NCBI RefSeq assembly: GCF_003384035.1
Contig: NZ_QQAK01000010.1
Span: 186,001-250,000, forward strand
DNA: 64,000 bases
DNA from: Sporosarcina sp. BI001-red
GTDB taxonomy: Bacteria > Bacillota > Bacilli > Bacillales_A > Planococcaceae
Direction of reading: 5' to 3'
Position 1 is the first letter of the stretch. Every line of letters begins with the position of its first letter. A program made the translations under genes and the position numbers. A model generated the notes under the pieces. That model was not told the DNA's origin. It saw nothing but the letters and a program-made list of their open reading frames with translations, and made no database searches. Shown piece after piece: positions 6,798 through 40,888 of the stretch.

Positions 6798-6920
6798 GTT
6801 TGTAGCGGAATGCGGCGACTCCGGAGGAATCAGCGAAGATTGAAGACCCCGCAGAGGCGAAGCTTCGAGGAGGCTGAAATCGAGCCCCTCGGAATGCGTC
6901 CGCATGGAGCGGAAAACAAC
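6798..6920 (+). repeat. Interspersed repeat copy R1 (123 bp)
   Basis: Shares with three other places in the window a core GGCGACTCCGGAGGAATCAG, then GAAGACCCCGCAG and ATCGAGCCCCTCGGAA. Ends are imperfect inverted repeats (GTTTGT and AAACAAC). A 75-codon open frame across it is spurious. Non-coding, MITE-like in layout. Confidence 0.85.
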
Positions 6921-7033
6921 GAGCGCCGGAAAATCAAATTAAACGGCATAAGTATATCTTATGTCATTCGTTCTAAACTATCGTATTACCTTATCTGCCG
7001 TGTAGAGGTATACTACAACAGAGAGGGGGGCAG

Positions 7034-7833: not shown

Positions 7834-8898
7834 TCATTTTCGTTGAGACTTTGTAAGTGCTTTCCAGCGTTTTCGTTCAGCAACCTGTGCTTGTGCATCC
7901 GTTTTTCGATCCAAGTATGCAATTTCTCGTTGCAATTTAAGATAGCTCGCGTAACGGTCTTCCGCGAGAGAGCCGTCACTTAACGCTTGGTGAATGGCAC
8001 ATCCTGGCTCGGCTTTATGGCTACAATCATTAAACTTACATGACTCTGAAAGTGCATCAATATCTGAAAAGCTACCTTCGATACTATCGCTGTCGTTCCA
8101 TAGTTGAAATTCCCGCATACCAGGTGTGTCTATCAAAACACCTCCTGCTGGCAACGCAATGAGTTCGCGGTGTGTCGTTGTATGGCGGCCTTTTGCATCA
8201 TCTTCACGAATTGTTTGGACTGTCATCGTTGCGTTCCCACAAATCGCATTGACTAAAGATGATTTTCCGACACCGGACGAACCTAATAGCGCCGCGGTTT
8301 TACCGTCTTCAAGCAGAGCAATGACCTGATCGATTCCATCACCAGTTTTACTGCTGACAGCGAGTACGTCTGTACCGAATGCAATGTCACGTGCTTGGTC
8401 AATGAAGTCGTCTGGACAATCGCAAAGATCCGCTTTTGTTAACACAATCACTGGAATTGCACCTGAGTCATAGGCAGCGACCAAGTAACGTTCCAGTCTT
8501 CGCAGATTGAAATCATCGTTCATCGATGTCACGAGAAAGACGATATCGATGTTGACCGCAATCAGTTGCTCCGTCATAGAGTCACCAGCAGTTTTTCGAG
8601 AAAAGACTGAAGTTCTCGGCAGAATCGAATGGATGATGCCGCGTTCTTCACCAGGCATGTGTTCAATCGCCACCCAGTCTCCAACGGCTGGGTAATCTCG
8701 CCGGTCGATTGCATGATGAAGTAAAGATCCAGAGCAGACAGCAAGCCACTCACCTTTTTCCGTAACGACTCGATACATATGTTTATGTTCCAATATCACC
8801 CGACCTACCGTGCAGTCGCTTGATTTGAATTCGTTTTGTTGCTCATTCCAATGTGTTTGATGAAGTTCGTTCCAACCATAATTTTGTAATGTTTTCAA
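7834..8898 (-). CDS. rsgA: Ribosome small subunit-dependent GTPase A
   Basis: Circularly permuted GTPase acting late in 30S subunit maturation, 354 aa. Order of motifs from the chosen start: OB fold (about 30-90), G4 TKAD (154-157), G1 GSSGVGKSS (206-214), G3 DTPG (257-260), then a zinc finger with Cys287, Cys292, His294 and Cys300. I assign a TTG start at 8898 because AGGAGG lies seven bases before it; the longer open frame would run back into the terminator hairpin. Upstream lie a promoter, a 21-codon leader ORF and an attenuator-like hairpin, so expression may depend on translation status. In other Bacillales an rsgA sits in the prpC-prkC cluster; this one is solitary. Confidence 0.92.
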   Translation of the reverse strand: MKTLQNYGWNELHQTHWNEQQNEFKSSDCTVGRVILEHKHMYRVVTEKGEWLAVCSGSLLHHAIDRRDYPAVGDWVAIEHMPGEERGIIHSILPRTSVFSRKTAGDSMTEQLIAVNIDIVFLVTSMNDDFNLRRLERYLVAAYDSGAIPVIVLTKADLCDCPDDFIDQARDIAFGTDVLAVSSKTGDGIDQVIALLEDGKTAALLGSSGVGKSSLVNAICGNATMTVQTIREDDAKGRHTTTHRELIALPAGGVLIDTPGMREFQLWNDSDSIEGSFSDIDALSESCKFNDCSHKAEPGCAIHQALSDGSLAEDRYASYLKLQREIAYLDRKTDAQAQVAERKRWKALTKSQRK

Positions 8899-8924
8899 CT
8901 GTTTTCCTCCTAAATATGGGCATA

Positions 8925-8963
8925 TAAAAAAGCATGGGATCCGATGATCGGACTCCATGCTTT
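8925..8963 (-). terminator. Attenuator hairpin upstream of rsgA
   Basis: On the minus strand, arms AAAGCATGG and CCATGCTTT enclose an inner GTCCGAT/ATCGGAT stem and are followed by TTTTTTA, 27 nt before the rsgA start. The 5' arm (8946-8965) is also complementary to 9010-9028 inside the leader ORF (18 of 20 positions), which would form a competing antiterminator. Terminator and antiterminator are therefore mutually exclusive. Confidence 0.8.
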
Positions 8964-8994
8964 CACGCGCATACCAGAAGAAACATGCCTAATT

Positions 8995-9060
8995 TTAAGG
9001 CACGGCAGGTGAAAGTATGGGTCCGATCCAATTTGCAATTGTCAAGTTGAAGTTTGTCAT
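8995..9060 (-). CDS. Putative 21-aa leader peptide of rsgA
   Basis: Short ORF starting MTNFNLTIANW and ending SPAVP, with AGGTGA seven bases before its ATG. It is the only ORF between the promoter and the attenuator. Codons 11-17 overlap the antiterminator half-site, so a ribosome moving through would free the terminator, while absent or early-stalled ribosomes would allow read-through into rsgA. Coding is inferred from position and ribosome binding site; the peptide resembles nothing I recognise. Confidence 0.55.
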   Translation of the reverse strand: MTNFNLTIANWIGPILSPAVP

Positions 9061-9091
9061 AGTCATCACCTGCTTTCTGTAAGTTACCTTT

Positions 9092-9120
9092 ATCATAAAT
9101 GAGAAACGTTTTGAAGTCAA
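9092..9120 (-). promoter_or_regulatory. SigA-type promoter of the rsgA leader
   Basis: TTGACT (9115-9120), 17-nt spacer, TATGAT (9092-9097) on the minus strand. Transcription would begin near 9085, giving a leader of about 185 nt. Confidence 0.75.
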
Positions 9121-9281: not shown

Positions 9282-9408
9282 GTTGTTTGAAGCAGAAGGC
9301 GGCGACTCCGGAGGGATTAGCGAAGATTGAAGACCCCGCAGGAGCGCTAGCGACGAGGAGGCTGAAATCGAGCCCCTCGGAAAGCGACCGCCTGGAGCGG
9401 AAAACAAC
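9282..9408 (+). repeat. Interspersed repeat copy R2 (127 bp)
   Basis: Same family as R1 with well-preserved ends GTTGTTT and AAACAAC. Core GGCGACTCCGGAGGGATTAG. Lies between the rsgA promoter and the next gene; the rest of this intergenic stretch holds nothing else recognisable. Confidence 0.87.
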
Positions 9409-9477
9409 GGTGCCATGTCGTATTGTTTAATTCAATTTATATAGCAAACTAATAACAGCATTAGATGAGGTGACTCT

Positions 9478-40690: not shown

Positions 40691-40776
40691 TTGATTTACG
40701 TTACAGGTGGACGCTTTCTGCGGGGGCTTCAGGCTTCGCTAGTCCCTCCGGAGTAGCCACTTTTCACTTCAATCAA
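40691..40776 (-). repeat. Interspersed repeat copy R4, short form
   Basis: About 86 bp in opposite orientation to R1-R3, with ends TTGATT and AATCAA. Core (minus strand) CTACTCCGGAGGGACTAGCG, then GCCCCCGCAG and AAAGCGTCC; the middle part of the longer copies is missing. The following 110 nt show nothing. Confidence 0.78.
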
Positions 40777-40888
40777 CGTGTATTCTTATATTTAGTTATG
40801 AAATTCCCTCTAGAACAATTCATCTTGAAGAAAAAGCTGCCACAGTTATCGGTTTCTAGTGATAATTTGGTAAGACTTTTTCATTACA

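Follow-up and report, generated by a model that had tools for sequence, protein, structure and literature searches.

A putative uORF-controlled transcription attenuator ahead of rsgA2, an accessory RsgA-type GTPase gene of Sporosarcina and its relatives

Introduction

Where a gene is controlled by a ribosome-stalling leader, its product usually responds to drugs or rescues ribosomes, as HflXr and VmlR do. In the vmlR leader of B. subtilis, the anti-antiterminator contains a short upstream open reading frame (uORF); lincosamides stall the ribosome at the uORF start, and initiation on the uORF is essential (PMC9226507). Experiments on hflXr (PMC6310831) and tlrB (PMC6851288) have established that loss of uORF translation abolishes induction. 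An RsgA-type gene has been linked to antibiotics in Streptomyces coelicolor, in which one of two such genes (RsgA/EngC; SCO6149/SCO5211) belongs to the antibiotic-responsive WblC regulon (PMC7157823).

The locus described here lies in a stretch of 64,000 nucleotides, referred to as the window, from Sporosarcina sp. BI001-red (Planococcaceae; contig NZ_QQAK01000010.1). We consider it likely that its leader, placed ahead of an accessory RsgA-type GTPase (RsgA2), attenuates transcription under the control of a uORF, in the manner of vmlR and HflXr. The observed basis of this reading is the set of parts, their conservation, their covariation and a predicted switch that stands out against controls. 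From these we infer that the attenuator would also work in the cell.

The vmlR leader (PMC9226507) resembles the RsgA2 leader in having a uORF, an anti-antiterminator that includes the uORF, an antiterminator and an intrinsic terminator, although the NusG pause is only a candidate motif here. The inducing stall in vmlR is at the very start of the uORF, and uORF sequence variants work; the same stall position is predicted for RsgA2. The vmlR uORF has 3 codons (MIN), whereas RsgA2 leaders have about 19-26. The vmlR gene encodes an ABCF ATPase with proven drug induction, whereas RsgA2 is a GTPase whose switch is predicted from sequence and folding. The rli80-hflXr locus of Listeria monocytogenes (PMC6310831) and the Bacillales hflX motif uORFC-6-1 (PMC8632094) combine, as does the RsgA2 locus, a uORF attenuator with a duplicated ribosome-associated GTPase and a separate housekeeping copy. 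However, the hflXr leader encodes a 14-residue peptide with an RLR motif that the RsgA2 leader does not have, and HflX works from the E site to split 70S ribosomes while RsgA acts on the 30S subunit. The tlrB (yxjB) leader of B. subtilis (PMC6851288), with its need for leader translation, NusG-dependent pausing and intrinsic terminator, is similar in parts. It differs in its RYR stall motif, in serving an rRNA methyltransferase gene and in having no identified overlapping antiterminator. The likeness to the antibiotic-linked Streptomyces pair SCO6149/SCO5211 (PMC7157823) is that one gene of an RsgA-type pair is under antibiotic-responsive control, whatever the clade of SCO6149; control by a transcription factor in the WblC regulon is unlike the RsgA2 leader attenuator.

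Results and Discussion

Layout of the leader

The sequence of the window has a sigma-A-type promoter, a leader ORF, an antiterminator, an intrinsic terminator and a TTG-start rsgA gene, all on the minus strand. The promoter (9092..9120) has the -35 box TTGACT, a 17-base spacer and the -10 box TATGAT, a 10/12 match. The leader ORF (8995..9060) runs from ATG 9060 to TAA 8995 and encodes, in 21 codons plus stop, the peptide MTNFNLTIANWIGPILSPAVP. Its Shine-Dalgarno (SD) sequence is in element A (GCAGGTGA, 9066..9073), which is also the 5' strand of the anti-antiterminator A:B'. The partner of A, element B' (TCACCTGC, 9005..9012), is at the end of the ORF. Element B (9009..9028), also inside the ORF, is the 5' strand of the antiterminator and pairs with element C (8946..8966), the 3' strand, which overlaps the 5' arm of the terminator. 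Over the leader stop codon there is a small hairpin (8985..9003), listed as terminator-like in the scan and possibly a pause hairpin, and the T-rich motif TTTCTTCTGG (8968..8983) is a candidate NusG-type pause site. The intrinsic terminator hairpin C:D (8929..8963; about -20 to -22 kcal/mol) is followed by a T-run. A simple terminator scan missed this hairpin (8963..8929), which is clear on folding. The gene itself (rsgA2, 7834..8898) begins with TTG at 8898 and has AGGAGG upstream.

Folding of the window leader gives a B:C helix of 19 bp with one unpaired base per strand (-27.5 kcal/mol) and an A:B' helix of -14.8 kcal/mol. The leader folds better than 200 of 200 dinucleotide shuffles (z = -5.1). 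The first-pass annotation, made from the sequence alone, had proposed a leader-peptide attenuator here, and each part that it named (promoter, 21-codon ORF with SD, terminator, AGGAGG and TTG) is present. The ORF segment that it reported as complementary to the terminator 5' arm pairs over 18 bp in its slightly shorter limits and over 19 bp in full. Helix A:B', the hairpin over the stop codon (9003..8985) and the status of the gene as a second rsgA were missing from it. Elsewhere in the window there is a dispersed repeat, in which 9285-9409 resembles 6798-6921 at 89% and, in part, 40718-40777 (reverse) at 82%.

Conservation in the family

The upstream regions of more than 130 loci were read. 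A leader ORF was counted when its SD had at least six matching bases, and expectations were taken from dinucleotide shuffles. A leader ORF precedes RsgA2 in 84 of the 92 loci from the family of the window, against 2.1 expected; under this strict SD criterion none was detected in the other 8. In 87/91 family loci a terminator separates the leader from the gene, with a median of -19.9 kcal/mol. A promoter matching at least 10 of 12 positions was found for 60 of 85 family leaders (3.2 expected). The -10 box mostly ends 31-36 nt upstream of the leader ATG, a near-fixed distance. The ORF is kept in relatives and its length shifts by whole codons only. The motif TTNTTY occurs past the leader stop in 57/91 family loci (16.9 expected) and is a candidate for the NusG-type pause motif described in PMC12288461.

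The pairing between B and C is also conserved. Among 38 leaders of the Sporosarcina group, 93.2% of the B:C cells are paired and six pairs have changes on both sides, a result reached in 0 of 500 shuffles; slid control versions of B:C in the same leaders were just 27-45% paired. The sequences of B and C differ in distant genera, yet the pairing persists (median z about -3 versus shuffled ORFs). For A:B' (9073..9066 with 9012..9005), 96.7% of cells are paired in the 38 relatives with just two both-side changes, so the covariation apparent in the alignment is modest. The C:D columns were misaligned in MAFFT (60.8% paired), and the terminator was therefore scored by per-sequence folding. The check for conservation in relatives that the first-pass annotation had proposed thus gave a positive result for both the ORF and the antiterminator stem. 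Its mutually exclusive terminator and antiterminator agree with the covariation of B:C and the overlap of C with the terminator 5' arm. Insert-like sequences are present between the terminator and rsgA2 in five relatives (L018, L019, L057, L058 and L061).

Predicted switch

The folding models predict a leader that is OFF without translation, OFF with normal translation and ON with a ribosome held at the start. In the default state, A:B' would tie the leader SD to the end of the ORF, and C:D would form as the terminator. A ribosome that reads the ORF through to its stop would cover B, again giving the terminator. A ribosome arrested at the first codons would instead cover A and leave B free, and free B would capture C before D is made, so that no terminator would form and rsgA2 would be transcribed. 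A:B' would be an anti-antiterminator, and its opening would need a ribosome at about codons 1-4. A NusG-type pause would time the switch.

At equilibrium without a ribosome, the window leader favors A:B' plus the terminator at -60.1 kcal/mol versus -47.2 kcal/mol for the antiterminator form with D unpaired. With a ribosome mask at codons 1-3, B:C is in the best full-length fold; with the mask at codon 9 or beyond, and likewise at the stop, the terminator is preferred. Averaged over 99 leaders, the terminator probability is 0.90 when no ribosome is present, falls to 0.40-0.42 with one at codons 1-2, and is back at 0.97 for codon 14 and 0.88 for the stop. A switch was defined as a terminator probability above 0.7 dropping to below 0.3. 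It was predicted for 46/99 real leaders and for 0/396 controls in which the leader was shuffled and the terminator was unchanged. Equilibrium rules, which include neither kinetics nor pseudoknots, predict a switch in no more than about half of the leaders. In minimum-energy folding of the growing transcript without a ribosome, A:B' forms first, B:C replaces it for about 20 nt, and A:B' plus the terminator follows. Since B:C is favored for this short stretch of transcription, the no-ribosome state of the window leader may be leaky.

The idea that ribosomes crossing the ORF shut the gene off is in line with these models. As inducers, the first-pass annotation had offered early stalling or poor initiation; the former agrees with the folds, but the latter does not, as the no-ribosome fold is the one with A:B' and the terminator. 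Poor initiation is central to the alternative in which the leader senses translation capacity. A shortage of ribosomes or a failure of 30S assembly would leave the leader untranslated, B would be free, the antiterminator would form and rsgA2 would be made. Transcription yields B ahead of C and D, and for some 20 nt without a ribosome no fold is better than B:C. B also adjoins B', so that A:B' and B:C might be present together in a pseudoknot, a structure beyond the folding program; such a leader would be ON without ribosomes, which would rescue the capacity sensor. A few leaders (e.g., L036 and L110) are predicted to be ON without a ribosome, and the weak constraint on the leader peptide also suits this alternative. 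However, the equilibrium fold without a ribosome is OFF across the 99 leaders, the conserved A:B' helix is sensible as a lock, and blocked uORF initiation prevents induction in vmlR, hflXr and tlrB. Sensing of translation capacity is therefore an unlikely explanation.

RsgA2 as a second rsgA gene

The genome has two rsgA-type genes above the TIGR00157 cut-off of 100 bits. The copy on contig C9 (rsgA1) scores 254 bits and the window gene 185.8-187 bits. RsgA2 has a PF03193 score of 182.3 against a cut-off of 30 and is 34% identical to the C9 housekeeping copy. In a tree of 48 proteins, 28 RsgA2-type proteins are on one side of a branch with a support of 87, and the rsgA1 side has a support of 99. 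A housekeeping rsgA with simple feedback was considered and is ruled out by the second genome copy and the separate clade. The first-pass annotation had suggested that a 30S maturation factor regulates its own gene; since the gene is an accessory paralogue, this feedback does not follow.

RsgA2 retains the P-loop GSSGVGKSS, a GRHTTT segment and a C/H zinc-type motif, and therefore it is probably active as a GTPase. It shares the RsgA GTPase domain, P-loop and zinc motif with the housekeeping RsgA/CpgA (YloQ) of Bacilli, which differs in its low identity, in its separate clade and in having no leader ORF. Unlike RsgA/CpgA, RsgA2 has an N-terminal extension with a (Y/L)GWN motif. In a check for an N-terminal OB-fold, the Pfam OB-domain models gave no match to RsgA2 at an E-value of 0.001.

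The gene is present in 212 of 261 genomes of the family and in 188 of 399 sampled genomes of the class. Named carriers include Sporosarcina, Lysinibacillus, Planococcus, Brevibacillus, Paenibacillus, Exiguobacterium, Clostridium, cyanobacteria and Phenylobacterium, and the nearest named matches are at 67-68%. One genome of the same genus encodes a third, very divergent RsgA-like protein on a very long branch (G023:C1:3124500-3126600, L180). RsgA-type matches were found on 134 plasmid records at E 1e-40. On plasmid pMGMM7 of Lysinibacillus fusiformis (L263), a fosM gene of the fosfomycin-resistance type directly follows RsgA2.

Once made, RsgA2 would help the 30S or 70S ribosome to recover. It is also conceivable, though improbable, that the switch is real and that RsgA2 serves ribosome shutdown, as in hibernation or a phage response, rather than drug tolerance. 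This alternative concerns the function of the gene and overlaps with the attenuator reading. RsgA of E. coli is reported to block phage T4 through the inactivation of ribosomes (PMC10475562), but RsgA2 has no match to a defence-system family beyond generic GTPase similarity.

Leader peptide and likely inducers

The leader peptide varies freely between genera, with weak constraint on its residues and no RLR motif. This variability fits the sensing of an arrest at the first codons, where the peptide sequence matters little, and such sensing would make initiation-stage or early-elongation inhibitors the likely inducers. More generally, any drug or stress by which ribosomes become arrested during initiation or immediately afterwards would be a natural inducer, and antibiotics that cause start-of-translation arrest probably induce the gene. 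The membership of one of the two S. coelicolor RsgA-type genes in the WblC regulon (PMC7157823) is an independent pointer to such inducers, although SCO6149 may or may not be an RsgA2.

A sequence-specific arrest peptide, in which IGPILSP would act like RLR or similar motifs and stall a ribosome carrying a drug, is quite doubtful. IGPILSP is kept in the nearest relatives, and synonymous changes in the C-terminal half exceed expectation in some groups (35 vs 14 expected). However, IGPILSP coincides with RNA element B, and a stall at that site would put the ribosome on top of B and keep the gene OFF. Other genera of the family have unrelated peptides, e.g., MANLIENVKLRIGMFQVSHHTYAF and MAILFLNTQIQSIMSRSVYR. 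A drug-specific arrest peptide of the HflXr/Erm type was rejected, as no RLR or other stall motif is common to the genera of the family. An amino-acid/tRNA attenuator, T-box or metabolite riboswitch would share the general terminator and antiterminator architecture but is very improbable, given that the leaders contain no run of one regulatory codon and the gene is not biosynthetic. Neither the window nor the sampled relatives had an Rfam match exceeding the gathering score, except for rliD elsewhere in a Listeria record.

Leaders outside the family

Leader ORFs also precede RsgA2 in other families of Bacilli (27/50 vs 1.7 expected), in named Bacilli (28/50 vs 1.3) and in named genomes outside Bacilli (16/29 vs 0.5), the last including Clostridium, cyanobacteria and alphaproteobacteria. 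None was found in 19 regions upstream of rsgA1 (0.5 expected). The locus sets share taxa and related sequences and are not independent draws; therefore, the weight rests on the rsgA1 control and on the spread over phyla.

In Listeria monocytogenes, the RsgA2 gene (L262) adjoins pnp and its leader encodes MAIVKMENLIINTGVFYL. After this leader comes a segment with two possible pairing partners, the ORF and the gene's own SD, and the leaders of Oceanobacillus and Brevibacillus resemble this arrangement. The pairing potential suggests translation attenuation in these three genera. Among them, O. limi receives some support from the fold model, in which SD accessibility is 0.25 without a ribosome and 0.79-0.88 at codons 2-4, and it is also 1.0 at the stop; the result for Listeria is less clear and that for Brevibacillus is flat. 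The SD-sequestering leaders outside the family have no clear switch on average in the fold model, and so translation attenuation is a sequence-level proposal for a few examples.

The alphaproteobacterial and cyanobacterial leaders are conspicuous by their SD statistics. In two cyanobacteria (L219 and L224) the leader ORFs have SPQNR in common, and a near-identical hairpin, TTCTTCTGCGTGCCTTGTG...CACAAG...ACACGTA, lies immediately upstream of RsgA2. The alphaproteobacterial loci (L220, L221, L228, L231, L247, L249 and L253) are mainly from Phenylobacterium. Their peptides, e.g., MTPIVRAALRCVAVVCA and MKPIAAALRRVAVRVA, have a common arginine-containing core such as ALR(R/C)V, which is a possible stall motif. 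In two Exiguobacterium-like loci (L144 and L256), the end of the leader ORF falls within a GGGAGGG/CCCTCCC palindrome, the second arm of which also matches the gene's SD, a logic unlike that of the other leaders.

Conclusions

No published leader before an rsgA gene was found in open-licence papers, which does not prove that none exists. The mechanism itself is already known; what appears to be new is the gene under its control and how broad the association is. The gene is annotated as plain rsgA, and so RsgA2 will probably be taken for the housekeeping copy. The models suggest that this spare rsgA copy is probably turned on only when ribosomes are stuck.

A broader proposal, to which we give about an even chance, is that RsgA2 is a widespread and hitherto unrecognised translation-stress GTPase, a 30S-side counterpart of HflXr. 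It would be silenced by its leader in several phyla and induced by start-of-translation arrest whatever the leader peptide. Depending on the lineage, this would occur through transcription attenuation (the family of the window) or through sequestering of its own SD (e.g., Listeria, Brevibacillus and Oceanobacillus). The stalling-type control before an accessory RsgA across Bacilli, together with the leader ORFs in other phyla, makes a large unstudied family a candidate for a translation-stress factor acting on the 30S subunit.
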